Source of the DNA: Moritella sp. PE36
Lineage (GTDB): Bacteria > Pseudomonadota > Gammaproteobacteria > Enterobacterales > Moritellaceae
DNA length: 64,000 bases
NCBI RefSeq assembly: GCF_000170855.1
Contig: NZ_ABCQ01000005.1
Span: 1 to 64,000 of the forward strand
Reading direction: 5' to 3'
Shown here: positions 14,756 through 22,828 of the stretch, piece after piece
How positions within the stretch are numbered: position 1 is the stretch's first letter
Layout of the letters: each line of letters starts with the position of its first letter
Notes under the pieces: model-generated
What the model saw: the letters and a program-made list of their open reading frames with translations, nothing else
What the model was told of the DNA's origin: nothing
Databases searched by the model: none
Translations under genes and position numbers: made by a program

Positions 14756-15409
14756 TTAGTCGCAATTAAGGCGGAATGCTTTATGACTTTTCTTGATGTG
14801 CTGCTTAATGTTGCCAAGTGCCGTTTTAACTTCACCTTTTGTTGTTGCGTCTTGCAACTGGTTAAAAAGGTGCGTTAATTTGTCTATACCTTGCTGGTAA
14901 TCCATATGTTGCATATGGGTACTATGATCCATGCCTTCCATATTCGCCATATTGCTGTGGTCCATGTCTTTCATGTTTTGCATGTTCGCCATGTTGCTGT
15001 GGTCCATGCCTTTCATGTTTTGCATGTTCGCCATGTTGCTGTGATCCATGCCTTTCATGTTTTGCATGTTCGCCATGTTGCTGTGGTCCATGTCTTTCAT
15101 GTTTTGCATATTAGCCATATTGCTGTGATCCATGCCTTTCATGGTTGGCATGTCTTGCTGCAGTTTTAACGGTACTTCATCTTTCGCCTTCGTGCTGTTC
15201 GCCAATAATTTTGTCAGCTGAGTTTGCATTGCGGCTTGGTCTCCACGCTTAAATGCACCGACATAGGTTTTTAAATCATCACTCATCTCTTTCATGATAC
15301 TGCCGAGTTGGGTATCTTTACAGTGACCGTCACCATCGCTGTGGGCAAATGCCGCTGAGCTGATTGCGGCGCTAAGTGCGATTGCTATGGTTATCTGTTT
15401 AAATATCAT
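14756..15409 (-). CDS. Cytochrome b562-like periplasmic protein with Met/His metal-binding repeats
   Basis: A 217-residue protein with a signal peptide (cleavage likely after A-F-A, residue 22). Residues 31-88 and 168-215 resemble the two halves of cytochrome b562, a four-helix haem protein. The expected haem ligands align: Met39 in the first helix (I-M-K-E-M-S-D-D-L-K) and His209 in the last (K-K-S-H-K-A-F-R). The loop between helices 2 and 3 is replaced by five 14-residue repeats, M-K-(G/D)-M-D-H-S-N-M-A-N-M-Q-N, residues 90-159, plus a partial unit. M-D-H-S-x-M motifs are typical of periplasmic copper/silver binding. It is the last gene of the efflux operon. Haem binding is inferred; there is no C-x-x-C-H. 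Confidence 0.72.
   Translation of the reverse strand: MIFKQITIAIALSAAISSAAFAHSDGDGHCKDTQLGSIMKEMSDDLKTYVGAFKRGDQAAMQTQLTKLLANSTKAKDEVPLKLQQDMPTMKGMDHSNMANMQNMKDMDHSNMANMQNMKGMDHSNMANMQNMKGMDHSNMANMQNMKDMDHSNMANMEGMDHSTHMQHMDYQQGIDKLTHLFNQLQDATTKGEVKTALGNIKQHIKKSHKAFRLNCD
14933..15142 (-). repeat. Five tandem 42-bp repeats encoding Met/His units
   Basis: Five units of 42 bp encode the 14-residue repeats of the b562-like protein. The DNA units are nearly identical, with alternating Gly/Asp codons, so the array likely expands and contracts by slippage or recombination. Confidence 0.92.
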
Positions 15410-15460: not shown

Positions 15461-18400
15461 TTAATCAATCATTTGAGATTTTAAACTGACTGATTTCCAC
15501 AAGTAGAATGACGCTGGTAATACTAATAGTGTCAGAATAACGGCTGAGCCCATGCCACCAATCATAGGTGCTGCAATACGTTGCATTACTTGTGAACCGG
15601 TACCGTCACCATACATAATGGGTATTAAACCTATGATCACCGTCGCGACAGTCATCATCACGGGACGCACCCGAAGTCCAGCTCCATCCATCACCGCTTG
15701 CTGTAATTTAGCTTTGGTTAACTGACCCGTTGCCAGCGTACTTTCTAATGATTGGTTTAAATAAACTAACATGATCACACCAATTTCTACCGCAACACCG
15801 GCTAAAGCGATAAAGCCAACCCCAACGGCAATGGAGAAATTATAGTTGAGTAAATATAACAACCAGATACCGCCAATCATAGCCAGGGGCAAGGTGGCTA
15901 AAATAAGTAACACTTCGCCAACGCGGCGGAAAGCTAAATACAGTAATAGTACAATAATCGCTAATGTGGCAGGGATCACTACCGATAGCGTGGCTTTAGC
16001 TCGTTGCATATATTCGTATTGCCCCGACCAGGTAATTGAATAACCCGCCGGTAAGACGAGCTGCTCGGCGACTGCTTGCTGAGCATCGATCACATAAGAG
16101 CCAAGGTCGCGGCCATCAATATCCACGTAAATCCAACCGTTCGGGCGGGCATTTTCGGTTTTGATCATCGGTGCGCCGTCTTCGATGTAGATATTCGCGA
16201 CATCACCTAAAGCGATCCGCGCGCCTTGCGGTGTGACCAGTGGTAATAACCTCATCTGTTCGATGCTGTCGCGATAAGCTTGCGGATAACGGATATTCAC
16301 TGGGTAACGCTCTAAACCTTCAATCGTTTGTGTCACGTTCATACCACCGACGGCGGTGGAGATCACCGCTTGAACATCGACAATGCTAAGGCCGTAACGC
16401 GCGGCTTTTTCACGTTGAATATCAACCTTAACATAACGACCACCGGCGACGCGTTCGGCATAAGCGGATGCGGTACCAGGTACGTTAAGCAAGATCTTCT
16501 CTATCTGTTTACCTATTTTTTCGATTTCAACTAACTTTTCACCGGCGATCTTGATGCCAATCGGGGTTTTAATACCTGTTGCGAGCATATCGGTACGGGT
16601 TTTGATTGGCATCACCCAGGCGTTGGTTACCCCTGGGAATTGCACTAATTGATCCAGTTCTTGACGTAAACCTTCAGAGGTCATGCCTTCTCGCCACTGG
16701 GCTTTGGGTTTTAGCGTAATAAAGGTTTCTATCATGGTTAATGGCGCTGCATCGGTGGCGGTTTCGGCTCGTCCTGCTTTACCCCAAACCCGTTCTACTT
16801 CTGGTACTGTTTTGATTAATTTGTTGGTTTGTTGTAATAATTCTCTGGCTTTACCTATGCTGATACCTGGGTAGGTAGTTGGCATATACATGAGATCGCC
16901 TTCATCCAATGGCGGGATAAATTCACTGCCGATTTTATTCACCGGGTAAAAGCCGACGACTAATAATCCGGCCACGAGGCAAAGTAACAATACCGGGGAT
17001 TTTAAGCTTAATGCCAGCACCGGACGGTATAGCGCAACTAATCCACGGTTAATCGGATTTTTATGCTCAGGTAATACTTTACCGCGGATGAAATAACCCA
17101 TTAAGACGGGTACTAAGGTGACAGCCAGTCCCGCCGCGGCGGCCATTGAATATGTTTTGGTGAAGGCCAAAGGCGCAAACATTTTGCCTTCTTGTCCTTC
17201 CAGTACGAATACGGGCACAAAACTGAAGGTAATGATCAGCAACGAGAAAAATAGTGCCGGACCCACTTCAGACGCCGCTTTCGCGATCACCTGCCAACGA
17301 TTGGTATTGGTTAGCGGGGTCTTTTCTATGTGTTTGTGGACATTTTCGACCATCACAATCGCGCCATCAACCATGGCGCCAATCGCGATCGCAATCCCCC
17401 CGAGTGACATGATATTGGCATTAATGCCTTGCCATGACATGATGATAAAGGCCACCATAATGCCAATGGGTAAGCTGACTAACACCACTAACGAACTACG
17501 AATATGGAATAAAAACAAGGCACAAACGACGATAACGACAAGAAATTCTTCCAGTAATTTCAGGTAGAGATTCTCGACTGCATTATCGATTAATGTCGAG
17601 CGATCATAGGTGGGAACAATCTCAACACCTTCCGGTAGCGAGGCTTGTAAGGTTTGCAGTTTGGCTTTTACTGCGGCGATCACTTCACGTGCATTCTCGT
17701 TATAGCGCATGACGATAATGCCACCCACCACTTCACCTTCACCGTTAAGTTCGGAAACGCCACGGCGCATTTGTGGACCAAGTACAATATCGGCGACATC
17801 ACCAAGCAGTAATGGCGTACCCGTGCTGCTGAGCTTTAAGGGGATGTTTTTCAAGTCATCAATTGAGCTAATGTAGCCATTGGCTCGTACCATGTACTCG
17901 GCTTCGCCCATTTCGATGACGCTGGCGCCTGCTTCCTGATTCCCATCTTTAATCGCTTTGGTGATCAATGATAATGGGAGCTGATAACTGCGCAGTTTAT
18001 CTGGGTCGACAATGATCTGGTATTGCTTAACCATACCACCAACCGTGGCGACTTCAGATACACCGGGCACTGTTTGCAGTTCATACTTTAAAAACCAATC
18101 TTGAATACTGCGCAGTTGGCTTAAATCGTGATTACCGCTGGTATCGGTCAGGGCATAAGAATATACCCAACCCACACCCGTCGCATCAGGGCCTAACGCC
18201 GGTTTGGCAGTGCTGGGTAAATTTGGTGTTACTTGCGATAAGTATTCTAACACCCGTGAACGCGCCCAGTACATGTCGGTGCCATCAGCAAAGATGACGT
18301 AAACATAGGAATCACCGAAGAACGAATAGCCACGTACCGTTTTGGCTCCGGGTACAGATAACATCGCCGTTGTCAGTGGATAGGTGACTTGGTCTTCGAC

Positions 18401-18580
18401 TACCTGAGGTGCTTGTCCGGGGTAACTGGTTTTAATAATAACCTGGACATCGGACAGATCGGGGATCGCATCAATCGGGGTATTTTTGATCACGTAACTG
18501 CCGTAGATCAGGATCACTAAAGTGGCGAGTAACACCATGATGCGATTGTTAATCGACCATTCAATTATTTTCTTGATCAT
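15461..18580 (-). CDS. cusA: CusA-like heavy-metal RND efflux pump
   Basis: A 1039-residue RND transporter of the heavy-metal class, the inner-membrane proton-driven pump of a tripartite Cu(I)/Ag(I) exporter. It matches CusA from the start (I-I-E-W-S-I-N-N-R), with A-I-P-D-L-S-D-V-Q-V, the central D-G-A-I-V-M-V-E-N-V-H-K-H motif of TM4 and a porter domain rich in methionines (M-P-T-T-Y-P-G-I, R-T-D-M-L-A-T-G-I-K). Twelve membrane segments are expected. Its ATG overlaps the cusB stop by one base (TAATG), implying coupled translation. Confidence 0.93.
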   Translation of the reverse strand: MIKKIIEWSINNRIMVLLATLVILIYGSYVIKNTPIDAIPDLSDVQVIIKTSYPGQAPQVVEDQVTYPLTTAMLSVPGAKTVRGYSFFGDSYVYVIFADGTDMYWARSRVLEYLSQVTPNLPSTAKPALGPDATGVGWVYSYALTDTSGNHDLSQLRSIQDWFLKYELQTVPGVSEVATVGGMVKQYQIIVDPDKLRSYQLPLSLITKAIKDGNQEAGASVIEMGEAEYMVRANGYISSIDDLKNIPLKLSSTGTPLLLGDVADIVLGPQMRRGVSELNGEGEVVGGIIVMRYNENAREVIAAVKAKLQTLQASLPEGVEIVPTYDRSTLIDNAVENLYLKLLEEFLVVIVVCALFLFHIRSSLVVLVSLPIGIMVAFIIMSWQGINANIMSLGGIAIAIGAMVDGAIVMVENVHKHIEKTPLTNTNRWQVIAKAASEVGPALFFSLLIITFSFVPVFVLEGQEGKMFAPLAFTKTYSMAAAAGLAVTLVPVLMGYFIRGKVLPEHKNPINRGLVALYRPVLALSLKSPVLLLCLVAGLLVVGFYPVNKIGSEFIPPLDEGDLMYMPTTYPGISIGKARELLQQTNKLIKTVPEVERVWGKAGRAETATDAAPLTMIETFITLKPKAQWREGMTSEGLRQELDQLVQFPGVTNAWVMPIKTRTDMLATGIKTPIGIKIAGEKLVEIEKIGKQIEKILLNVPGTASAYAERVAGGRYVKVDIQREKAARYGLSIVDVQAVISTAVGGMNVTQTIEGLERYPVNIRYPQAYRDSIEQMRLLPLVTPQGARIALGDVANIYIEDGAPMIKTENARPNGWIYVDIDGRDLGSYVIDAQQAVAEQLVLPAGYSITWSGQYEYMQRAKATLSVVIPATLAIIVLLLYLAFRRVGEVLLILATLPLAMIGGIWLLYLLNYNFSIAVGVGFIALAGVAVEIGVIMLVYLNQSLESTLATGQLTKAKLQQAVMDGAGLRVRPVMMTVATVIIGLIPIMYGDGTGSQVMQRIAAPMIGGMGSAVILTLLVLPASFYLWKSVSLKSQMID

Positions 18581-20034
18581 TACAGCTCTCCCTCATCATC
18601 AAAGTCTAACCAAGATAGGTCTTCATCTTCAGTGGTGGTCGCTGGTTTTTGGGTTTGCTGCATTTGGCTATGGTCCATTGGTTCAGTCATATCACTGTGG
18701 TCCATGCCTTCCATCATCCTATTATCTCTTGCCCCAATACGAGCAAAATCGGCGGTGAGACTCGATTCTGAGTCAATCAAAAATTGCGCGCTGGTGACAA
18801 CGTTATCGCCATCGTTTAAACCCGCTAATACTTCCACATAACCTGCGGACTCTCTGCCTAAGGTGATCTTGACTGACTGATATTGGCCATTGCCTTTGGC
18901 AAGTACGATACGATCAAAGTTACCGGCGCGAATAATCGCTTCACGTGGTACTTGTACTGAATCGGTTTGTATTTGGCTGATTAATTTTAATCGCGCGAAC
19001 ATATTCGGTTTTAATTGCTTATCAGTGTTCGTAATTTTCACCCGTACTTTTAAGGTTCGGGTCACCGCATTTAATACCGGATAGATATAATCGACTTCAC
19101 CAAGCCAAGTTTTACCTGGAAAACTGTCTAATTGCATTTCGGCTTTATCACCCATTTTCACTAATCCGGCCTGTGATTCAAATACCTCGGCTTGCAGCCA
19201 TATTTCGGTTAATTGACCGGCTTCGACGATTTGTGCTGACGGGGAAATATAGGCGCCTTCACGTATGCTTAATTTAGTGATGTAACCGGATTCTGGCGCA
19301 TAGATAGTGATGTTCTGCAGTACTTTTTTACTGCGGTTAACTTGGTTGATTTGGTTTTGGCTGATGCCCAATGCCGATAATCGATGTTTGGCTGACGCGA
19401 TCAGGGTTTTATTGCCGATGCGTAAGGTATTAAGCAGCTCTTCCTGTGCTTTGATGAGCTCGGGTGAATACAGAGAAAGTAGTTTTTGGCCTTTATTTAC
19501 ATATTCACCTTCGCTATTAATATAAAGCTTATCTACCCAGCCTGATACGCGGCTGTTAATTTGCCACAGGGTATCTTGATTAAACTCTAACATACCGACG
19601 GTATTGATCTCGGCAATGAAAGGGCGTAATACGGCTGTTTGAGTGCGTACCCCTAAGTTATTTTCTACTCGCGCTGAGATAGTGACTAAACCGGCATCGC
19701 TTGCGGTTGTCGCATCGGCATAAACCGGGATCAAGTCCATGCCCATTGGCGATTGACCCGGTTTATCGCGACGATAGTTAGCATCCATGGGCGCGACCCA
19801 ATAGAGTAACTCTGGTTCTGCTGCTTTGGTGTCGGCATAAACAGGGACGAGATCCATGCCCATCGGTGATTTACCGGGTTGATCACGACGGTAGTTGGCA
19901 TCCATTGGTGCGACCCAATAGAGGATACTTGGTGCAGCGGTAGTTTCGGTATTATTTGTTTGTGGATTGGTAAACCAGGCACCTACTGCAATACCGAGTG
20001 CCAATGTGATTGAACTGGCTAATAATGTTTTCAT
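18580..20034 (-). CDS. cusB: CusB-like periplasmic adaptor with duplicated heavy-metal-binding domain
   Basis: A 484-residue membrane-fusion protein bridging CusA and CusC. After a membrane anchor it carries two copies of the short heavy-metal-binding domain (Y-W-V-A-P-M-D-A-N-Y-R-R ... S-P-M-G-M-D-L), residues 37-68 and 76-107; I know of one copy as usual. Barrel-sandwich and helical hairpin regions follow (W-V-D-K-L-Y, L-Y-S-P-E-L). The C-terminus adds M-D-H-S-D-M and M-D-H-S-Q-M motifs near residues 446-458, then an acidic tail. These extra Met/His sites match those of the b562-like protein encoded two genes downstream. Confidence 0.92.
   Translation of the reverse strand: MKTLLASSITLALGIAVGAWFTNPQTNNTETTAAPSILYWVAPMDANYRRDQPGKSPMGMDLVPVYADTKAAEPELLYWVAPMDANYRRDKPGQSPMGMDLIPVYADATTASDAGLVTISARVENNLGVRTQTAVLRPFIAEINTVGMLEFNQDTLWQINSRVSGWVDKLYINSEGEYVNKGQKLLSLYSPELIKAQEELLNTLRIGNKTLIASAKHRLSALGISQNQINQVNRSKKVLQNITIYAPESGYITKLSIREGAYISPSAQIVEAGQLTEIWLQAEVFESQAGLVKMGDKAEMQLDSFPGKTWLGEVDYIYPVLNAVTRTLKVRVKITNTDKQLKPNMFARLKLISQIQTDSVQVPREAIIRAGNFDRIVLAKGNGQYQSVKITLGRESAGYVEVLAGLNDGDNVVTSAQFLIDSESSLTADFARIGARDNRMMEGMDHSDMTEPMDHSQMQQTQKPATTTEDEDLSWLDFDDEGEL
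19714..19926 (-). repeat. Internal duplication of the heavy-metal-binding domain in cusB
   Basis: Two copies of a 32-codon segment, 117 bp apart start to start, differ at only four residues. They show a recent in-frame tandem duplication. Confidence 0.88.
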
Positions 20035-20042
20035 GTCGACCT

Positions 20043-21299
20043 CTATAATGCTTGAAAGTAGCGAATGCGGGCTAAAGTTTTTAAACTTTGGAAATGCAGT
20101 TGATGGTATTCGAGCTCGAAAGCCTGTTCATCCATTAATGCTTTGATAACTTGTTCAAAATCATTGGTATTAGCTTGGTAGCCTTGCATTACTGCCGCAC
20201 TATTTAATTTGGCTTGTACCAGTAACGTGTCTTGATAACGTTGCATCCGGGCTTCGGTATTATTGAAATTAGCGATAGCACCATTTAATATGCCATTGAA
20301 TTTTATCAGTAATAAGTCTTTTTCAGCTTGCTTCATGCCTTTACCTTGGGTGGCTGCGATCACCACTTGATCCTGGCGGTTACTGGTAAAAAGCGGAACA
20401 TTCATCGTGACAAAACCACTGATTAAATCACTGCGACTAGAGCCGGTATTCATGTCCATGGTTTCGCGGTGACCATAGCCAATATCCACTTTGAATGCGG
20501 GTTTATACGATTCATTGGCGGAGGCAATGGTATTTTGAGCGACATCAATGGCTTGTTGCGCGGCTAATACTTGTGGGTGACTGGCGAGTAATGCGTAATG
20601 TCGCACCTGTGCTAGCTGCGCATACTCACGACTTTGTGACCATTGTGGTAATTGCGGATCTAAGTCGGTAAACGCTTGCGGGCCAACCCAAGAGACCAGT
20701 TGTCCGCGTAAGGCTTGCTCTTGCTGGGCAAAGGCGGAAATTTTGTCATCAAATTTCGCTAGTTCAAGTTCTGCCTTTATTAGATCTTGATTTTGTTTGT
20801 AACCAAGTTCGAATTGGCGATAGAGATTCGTTACGTTCTGACGGAACAGATCCTGATTTTTAACCAGTATCTGCTGTGCCATACGGGTAAAACGAATATC
20901 GAACCAAAGTTCTCTGATCTGCAGTTTTAATTCCAATTGACGATTTTCTGCTAAATGCATACTTTGTTGCGTTTGTAGGGTAAATCCTTTGGCATTGAGC
21001 TCGAGCGTATCACCCCGTGCGAACTGTTGTGATAGGCCAAGACTAAATTGAGTCATGGGATCGTCTGACAACGAAAAACTGTCGATCGGTACATTCGCTA
21101 AACCGAGTTTTATCATTGGATCGGCAAGTTGCGATTGGCTGATGGCTTGTGCTTTAAAGCTCGCTTGTTGAGCTCGATATAATGTTGCGGAGGGATCGCG
21201 TTGTAGCGCAATATTTTCTGCAACAGATAGCGTTAATTGTTGGGCATTAACATTTAATGTCAGTAATGCTAATAACCCCAAATAAAATTTGGATGGCAT
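20043..21299 (-). CDS. cusC: CusC/TolC-like outer-membrane efflux protein
   Basis: A 418-residue outer-membrane factor of the TolC family with a signal peptide ending near N-V-N-A (residue 19) and no lipobox. Long heptad-rich helices alternate with short strand segments, as in the alpha-barrel/beta-barrel fold. It lies 8 bp before cusB and would form the exit duct of the exporter. Confidence 0.85.
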   Translation of the reverse strand: MPSKFYLGLLALLTLNVNAQQLTLSVAENIALQRDPSATLYRAQQASFKAQAISQSQLADPMIKLGLANVPIDSFSLSDDPMTQFSLGLSQQFARGDTLELNAKGFTLQTQQSMHLAENRQLELKLQIRELWFDIRFTRMAQQILVKNQDLFRQNVTNLYRQFELGYKQNQDLIKAELELAKFDDKISAFAQQEQALRGQLVSWVGPQAFTDLDPQLPQWSQSREYAQLAQVRHYALLASHPQVLAAQQAIDVAQNTIASANESYKPAFKVDIGYGHRETMDMNTGSSRSDLISGFVTMNVPLFTSNRQDQVVIAATQGKGMKQAEKDLLLIKFNGILNGAIANFNNTEARMQRYQDTLLVQAKLNSAAVMQGYQANTNDFEQVIKALMDEQAFELEYHQLHFQSLKTLARIRYFQAL

Positions 21300-21340: not shown

Positions 21341-21718
21341 TCAATTAATGAGAGGAGGGCGATAGAGGCTATCTTGGTGTTGTTTTAGAGGCGGGGTTAA
21401 TTCGTAACGTAGCGAGTTACTTTGTTTATAGCTGTTTAAGAGCAGCTTATTATTGTAATTAATAAATGATGATACGCAGGTGGTATTACAGTCATTACAA
21501 TTATCCATATTGCTGCAATCTTCGTTATCATATTGGTTTGTGGCATGCTGAACTTGCGGATTATCATGCTGCATTTTACTCATACTATCTTGAGAGTCGC
21601 ATGGCATGTTTTGCATATCACAAGAAATAGTAGCGGACATAGTTCGCATGCTCATTGCCTGAAGCGGTAATGAGAATGTGTTTATTAATACTAATAAAAT
21701 TAATAGCACTATGCGCAT
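21341..21718 (-). CDS. Small secreted Cys/Met-rich protein, first gene of copper operon
   Basis: A 125-residue protein with a signal peptide (residues 1-21, ending L-Q-A). The mature part has many methionines and a cysteine cluster (C-S-N-M-D-N-C-N-D-C-N-T-T-C), consistent with metal binding. It is the promoter-proximal gene of the efflux operon. Small proteins of this kind sit at the head of copper operons in related bacteria, but I cannot name a family with certainty. A periplasmic copper-sensing or buffering role is inference. Confidence 0.6.
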   Translation of the reverse strand: MRIVLLILLVLINTFSLPLQAMSMRTMSATISCDMQNMPCDSQDSMSKMQHDNPQVQHATNQYDNEDCSNMDNCNDCNTTCVSSFINYNNKLLLNSYKQSNSLRYELTPPLKQHQDSLYRPPLIN

Positions 21719-21758: not shown

Positions 21759-21789
21759 ATGATAATCTTTACCTTAAGGGGAAGGTCAA
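21759..21789 (-). promoter_or_regulatory. MerR/CueR-type promoter of the copper operon
   Basis: On the minus strand TTGACC (21784-21789) and TATCAT (21759-21764) are separated by 19 bp, the over-long spacing typical of MerR-family promoters. The spacer starts TTCCCCTT as in the E. coli copA promoter bound by CueR. A dyad ACCTT-N6-AAGGT is present. The start codon lies about 40 bases downstream. No cueR gene is in the window. Confidence 0.65.
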
Positions 21790-21827
21790 GTGTTGAGGTG
21801 GGGATATTGGTGGTAAATTTTAGGTAT

Positions 21828-21875: not shown

Positions 21876-21951
21876 TGGTGGGCTGTGAAGGATTTGAACC
21901 TTCGACCAATTGATTAAAAGTCAACTGCTCTACCAACTGAGCTAACAGCCC
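21876..21951 (-). tRNA. tRNA-Lys (UUU), copy 3 of the operon
   Basis: A 76-base cloverleaf with anticodon TTT, standard T-loop (GGTTCAAATCC) and encoded CCA. Last gene of the array in the direction of transcription. Confidence 0.97.
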
Positions 21952-22006
21952 CCGAATTCTTTCTTTTATAGCTTTATGTTTTATGACATAAACACCACAA
22001 TTTAAG

Positions 22007-22082
22007 TGGTGGGTCCTACTGGGCTTGAACCAGTGACCCTCGCCTTGTAAGGGCGATGCTCTCCCAACTGAGCTAAGGACCC
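22007..22082 (-). tRNA. tRNA-Val (UAC), copy 3
   Basis: A 76-base cloverleaf with anticodon TAC and encoded CCA. Confidence 0.97.
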
Positions 22083-22121
22083 ACAATATTTTTTAGCGAT
22101 AGTTGTGGCTATCGTTTAAAC

Positions 22122-22198
<77 letters not shown>

Positions 22199-22249
22199 AC
22201 AATTTTGTTTTCACTGCTTATCTAATAATAAGAAATAACAGTAAGAAAG

Positions 22250-22325
22250 TGGTGGGCTGTGAAGGATTTGAACCTTCGACCAATTGATTAAAAGTCAACT
22301 GCTCTACCAACTGAGCTAACAGCCC
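22250..22325 (-). tRNA. tRNA-Lys (UUU), copy 2
   Basis: Same sequence as the other tRNA-Lys copies; anticodon TTT, encoded CCA. Confidence 0.97.
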
Positions 22326-22381
22326 CCGTATTCTTTCTTTTTATAGCTTCATGTCTTATGACATAAACACCACAATTTAAG

Positions 22382-22457
22382 TGGTGGGTCCTACTGGGCT
22401 TGAACCAGTGACCCTCGCCTTGTAAGGGCGATGCTCTCCCAACTGAGCTAAGGACCC
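22382..22457 (-). tRNA. tRNA-Val (UAC), copy 2
   Basis: Same sequence as the other tRNA-Val copies; anticodon TAC, encoded CCA. Confidence 0.97.
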
Positions 22458-22496
22458 ACATTATTTTTTAGCGATAGTTGTGACTATCGTTTAAAC

Positions 22497-22573
<77 letters not shown>

Positions 22574-22611
22574 ACAATGCTGTGTCTTACTTACGTAAGT
22601 TATAAAGAAAG

Positions 22612-22687
22612 TGGTGGGCTGTGAAGGATTTGAACCTTCGACCAATTGATTAAAAGTCAACTGCTCTACCAACTGAGCTAACAGCCC
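22612..22687 (-). tRNA. tRNA-Lys (UUU), copy 1
   Basis: Anticodon TTT, encoded CCA; identical to the other copies. Confidence 0.97.
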
Positions 22688-22752
22688 CCGAATTCTTTCT
22701 TTATAGTAAATCCCGTTACTTATCTTATAAAGATATAACCAGACTTAATATA

Positions 22753-22828
22753 TGGTGGGTCCTACTGGGCTTGAACCAGTGACCCTCGCCTTGTAAGGGC
22801 GATGCTCTCCCAACTGAGCTAAGGACCC
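22753..22828 (-). tRNA. tRNA-Val (UAC), copy 1, first of the operon
   Basis: Anticodon TAC, encoded CCA. This is the promoter-proximal tRNA of the eight-gene array. Confidence 0.97.

Follow-up and report, generated by a model that had tools for sequence, protein, structure and literature searches.

The last gene of a copper/silver efflux operon in the marine bacterium Moritella sp. PE36 encodes a protein in which an array rich in methionine and histidine takes the place of a loop in a cytochrome b562-type core. The window analysed here is the whole stretch of 64,000 nucleotides that holds this operon, and architecture, ligand conservation, operon, promoter, and distribution were all computed. 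The explanation that fits best, and that we hold with moderate confidence, is that a haem b562 bundle here buffers Cu(I)/Ag(I) for CusCBA in the manner of SilE or CusF, and possibly also reduces Cu(II). Judging by the sequence, binding of copper or silver by this protein is very likely and binding of haem is likely, while a redox link of haem to copper is a tentative proposal. The gene and its parts are as follows:

14756..15409, minus strand: b562-like protein with a Met/His array, 217 aa, an open reading frame.
15344..15409, minus strand: signal-peptide-like N terminus, residues 1-22 (AFA/H), read from the sequence.
15161..15313, minus strand: helices 1 and 2 of the b562 bundle, residues 33-83, with the Met39 codon at 15293-15295.
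14900..15157, minus strand: Met/His-rich insert, residues 85-170, with 24 Met and 8 His and low pLDDT.
14939..15153, minus strand: 42-bp tandem array of 5.1 copies (Tandem Repeats Finder).
14762..14899, minus strand: helices 3 and 4, residues 171-216, with the His209 codon at 14783-14785.

What kind of protein carries this array? An earlier note on this DNA held that both ends align with cytochrome b562, and the parts that match are residues 33-83 and 171-213. Tested on the profile of that family, PF07361, the claim holds for the core and not for the protein as a whole: once the insert is taken out, the core reaches 38.9 bits (E 1.4e-9; positions 2-102 of the 102 in the profile), over the cut-off of 30, while the intact protein, whose domain the insert splits, falls under it at 19.3 bits. 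LRR-type Pfam matches of the intact protein were set aside as low-complexity matches in the Met-rich stretch. When a profile of core sequences is compared with canonical b562 (hhalign), the probability is 97% and E is 9.4e-11. A profile search of the PDB finds b562 chains at E 0.001-0.1; phmmer against the same database finds no natural b562 at E 1, with designed chlorophyll proteins placed first. A plain b562-family gene is also present in the same genome.

The predicted structures agree with this assignment, since the models contain a four-helix bundle. An AlphaFold2 model built without an alignment places helices at residues 34-55, 58-78, 162-187, and 191-216; its mean pLDDT is 60.5, and the helical core reaches 70-87 on both sides of the low-confidence insert. 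Residues 33-213 superpose on residues 1-106 of E. coli b562 (256b) with Z 11.1, an rmsd of 3.5, 101 aligned residues, and 23% identity, and the model of a second homologue gives the same match (Z 10.1, rmsd 3.7); a Z of about 11 is not decisive by itself for helical bundles, and these models combine the lack of an alignment with a mean pLDDT of about 60. Most natural proteins in the structure-match list are b562, as chains or in fusions, or cytochrome c'. Designed ABLE bundles top the VIA-align list, a placing taken to reflect ideal-bundle geometry and not kinship. Foldseek gives no match at E < 0.001; its upper ranks nevertheless contain many b562 chains and BRIL fusions.

Both haem ligands were also said to be in place, and sequence and structure alignments bear this out. 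In three MAFFT modes, Met39 falls opposite Met7 of E. coli b562 and His209 opposite His102, and the end points of the structural match to 256b form the same two pairs. The hhalign alignment offers an alternative in which Met42 lies on Met7. Met39 is preferred because it is invariant among the homologues and the position of Met42 varies (Met, Leu, or Ile); the helix-1 register score is 18 for Met39 versus -10 for Met42. Among the homologues of the tree set, an equivalent of Met39 is found in 38 of 38 and one of His209 in 34 of 38. Two cysteines absent from E. coli b562, Cys30 (codon 15320-15322) and Cys216, pair by position and are kept together with the haem ligands in homologues. As the two ends of the b562 bundle lie close together, a Cys30-Cys216 disulphide near the haem site is plausible.

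The protein would be exported to the periplasm, given that its start, MIFKQITIAIALSAAISSAAFA-H, looks by eye like a signal peptide; A22 and H23 are invariant in the alignment of homologues (A1). The putative mature N terminus is His23, with His29-Cys30 close by (window 15320-15343), all invariant in that alignment, and these residues are a possible second copper site.

The insert occupies 86 residues between helices 2 and 3 of the b562-type core, just where the earlier reading had put an array in place of a loop, and contains no Cys. Its five 14-residue units are likewise as described: MDHSNM starts at residues 93, 107, 121, 135, and 149, followed by a sixth MDHS at residue 160, and Tandem Repeats Finder gives 91% matching between the 42-bp units. 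Two kinds of Met/His motif are more frequent than shuffling would lead one to expect, HxxM (5 observed versus 2.2; the HxxM type is defined as in PMC5008109) and MxH (7 versus 2.2). MDHSxM repeats also occur in copper oxidase and CopB proteins, and the best plasmid matches of the protein are to the Met-rich regions of these two. One such gene lies in the same genome (L023, 343-2235 of G000:C110): it encodes a multicopper-oxidase-like protein with the Met-rich stretch MDHSSMPGM and is followed by a CopB-like gene.

The genes upstream, on the same strand, are those of a Cu/Ag efflux system, so that the b562-like gene does close such an operon:

15461..18580, minus strand: cusA, Cu/Ag RND pump (TIGR00914, 1265.9 bits).
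18580..20034, minus strand: cusB, a periplasmic adaptor that carries two HMBD domains and ends in a Met/His tail, MMEGMDHSDMTEPMDHSQM.
20043..21299, minus strand: cusC-like outer-membrane factor (PF02321, OEP).
21341..21718, minus strand: small CopL-like protein, encoded by the gene that opens the operon (NF033807, E 3e-7, a weak match under its cut-off).
21769..21790, minus strand: CueR-type promoter element, CTTGACCTTCCCCTTAAGGTAA.

The b562-like gene is thus the last of the series copL-like, cusC, cusB, cusA; cusA lies 51 bp upstream of it, and no terminator-like site was found on the minus strand between the two. The C-terminal tail of CusB is a shorter version of the motif in the insert. 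Before the first gene stands CTTGACCTTCCCCTTAAGGTAAAGATTATC, conserved in sister Moritella loci. With 19 bp separating its TTGACC from its TATCAT, it resembles the E. coli copA promoter recognized by CueR. Genome-wide, the CueR-type core pattern with at most one mismatch has two sites, one at the cus operon and one, with 1 mismatch, some 45 bp ahead of the gene for a CopA-type Cu-ATPase; a CueR gene, over its curated cut-off, lies just beyond this ATPase gene. A Pfam search for CusF (PF11604) found none in the genome and no CusF domain in the b562-like protein. Directly upstream of the operon are eight tRNA genes (21876-22828, minus strand) in the order Lys, Val, Met, Lys, Val, Met, Lys, Val, a repeated Lys-Val-Met with a 375-bp tandem unit.

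The design is not a one-off. A search of other genomes for the same insertion gave 29 array-bearing homologues, which belong to three families of one order: within Moritella, homologues are found in 10 of 11 genomes (that of the window included), and two further families, coded f9 and f11, have them as well. The protein-query search of genome contigs gave one locus. In class and phylum samples (one genome per species, a few hundred species), no array protein was found outside the order of the window, a negative that sampling on this scale does not make conclusive, and a plasmid search gave no array-less homologue. Each of the 29 array-bearing genes immediately follows cusA, in the same orientation, compared with 3 of 9 array-less relatives (p = 3e-5, a rough guide only, as the sequences are related). 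Given the same design in relatives, the probable role of the protein is to capture copper or silver for the pump.

Could the repeat be an unstable, functionless low-complexity expansion in an ordinary b562? Its copies are 91% alike and their number differs between close relatives, as such an expansion would have it. Against this, all 29 arrays are Met/His-rich, none has a Cys, and every one stands behind cusA. The insert ranges from 38 to 126 residues among homologues, with up to 47 Met plus His, and its unit changes with the lineage, from MDHSNMANMQNMKG to MNHDMPA, MDHSAMGHDMSD, and MDHSKMDMKEMAG. These unlike units share the same Met/His chemistry, and chemistry that is kept while the repeat sequence turns over argues for selection on metal-ligand content. 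A functionless array is therefore very improbable.

Are the array and the haem site bound to each other? In the tree of the core (38 homologues), presence of the array changes at least three times and His209 is lost once. The loss marks a clade of four f11 proteins from one genus (support 87/83) that keep the array and the cus context. Two of them, L090 and L096, end in ...LKKNQ, followed by a stop and then by the in-frame remnant LFA*DCN, so the end that bears the haem His is gone and the array is retained. Array-less relatives, in turn, retain Met39, His209, and both Cys. The two parts can be separated, and their combination is the commoner form. Nature has in this way built in its own controls: haem ligands without an array, and an array without the haem His.

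As the four-member clade has an array but no haem His, haem is dispensable for the array there, and one might suppose that the bundle is everywhere a mere scaffold: a b562 fold that has outlived its need for haem and whose helices hold a Cu(I)/Ag(I) sponge like SilE. We consider this unlikely. Both ligands and the Cys pair are kept in 25 of the 29 array-bearing homologues, and the His-less proteins sit on long branches (0.59 for L068, 0.40 for L067, and 0.30 for the stem of L090 and L096, against a median end branch of 0.095), as if the core were less constrained once the His was lost.

How does the protein compare with known systems? It shares with cytochrome b562 (CybC, PF07361; 256b) the four-helix bundle, the Met near the start of helix 1, the His near the end of helix 4, and a signal-peptide-like start, and differs in its 86-residue insert, the conserved Cys30 and Cys216, and its place in a cus operon. 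SilE is a stand-alone disordered protein whose motifs take up 6-8 Ag ions in the manner of a sponge (PMC5008109). The array resembles SilE/PcoE in its repeated HxxM-type Met/His motifs, its Cu/Ag efflux setting, and its probable disorder without metal; unlike them, it interrupts a folded domain that has a predicted helical core and probably binds haem. Like the CusF/SilF chaperones, the protein would be a small periplasmic partner encoded with CusCBA, but it has no CusF domain. The Met-rich regions of the CopA/PcoA oxidases and CopB/PcoB have the same MDHSxM repeats, but their carriers are a copper oxidase or an outer-membrane protein and not a haem bundle. Cytochrome c' likewise holds haem in a four-helix bundle, and its genes occur near those of cytochrome b561, but the Moritella protein has no CXXCH haem-attachment motif. 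The b562 scaffold and the Met/His sponge motifs are thus each known. A search of open-licence papers for b562 together with copper resistance, Cus, or a Met-rich design found no published description of their combination in a Cus operon, in line with the earlier note, which knew of no protein so built.

What, then, might the protein do? From the evidence above we infer that the protein binds metal and haem and supplies the pump and, most loosely of all, that it carries out the redox step. A periplasmic, b562-type four-helix haem protein, its loop between helices 2 and 3 turned into a Met/His sponge, would be made together with CusCBA from a CueR-type promoter for Cu(I)/Ag(I). Several Cu(I) or Ag(I) ions would bind to the HxxM and MxH sites of the sponge, much as in SilE, and would be buffered there for CusCBA, in a genome where the Pfam search gave no CusF. 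The haem has probably kept a part in electron transfer, inherited from an ancestor that worked with a membrane cytochrome b561, and its most likely use would be to turn captured Cu(II) into Cu(I), the form exported by CusCBA. Ferrous b562 has a midpoint potential near +0.17 V and could donate an electron to Cu(II) in a Met-rich site. How does periplasmic Cu(II) become Cu(I) for Cus, and what feeds Cus pumps where the bacterium has no CusF, a protein present in 26% of the genomes surveyed (PMC3548706)? A haem protein that brings along a copper/silver sponge, ending cusCBA operons in three families, is a candidate for both Cu(II) reduction and supply of the pump. If haem carrier and copper sponge do work as one, a cupric reductase and a chaperone would be built into the Cus pump system, a combination that we rate as doubtful.

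In that reading, b561 or a similar donor would draw electrons from the quinone pool and hand them, by way of the haem, to Cu(II) in the array. The Moritella cus operon contains no b561 gene; b561 genes, about 40% identical, lie elsewhere in the genome. In the array-bearing f9 loci, a cytochrome b561 gene (PF01292) is directly downstream, as it is in the array-less L091 and L092. In L162, from another family, a canonical b562 gene is directly followed by a b561-like gene. With haem and copper sites together in a periplasmic protein, transfer could run in either direction, and the protein might instead oxidize Cu(I) to Cu(II), serve as a haem-linked copper sensor, or scavenge reactive oxygen; CopG/DUF411 and cytochrome c in some of the operons would suit such roles. 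Met-rich sites, however, favour Cu(I) and Ag(I), the pump of this operon is of the CusCBA type that exports Cu(I)/Ag(I), and a multicopper oxidase with a Met-rich region is already present in the genome, which makes these roles improbable. Locus L088 has its b561 gene three genes on, with a cytochrome c-like gene and CopG/DUF411 between, and CopG, CopC, and CopD genes follow some of the f11 copies.
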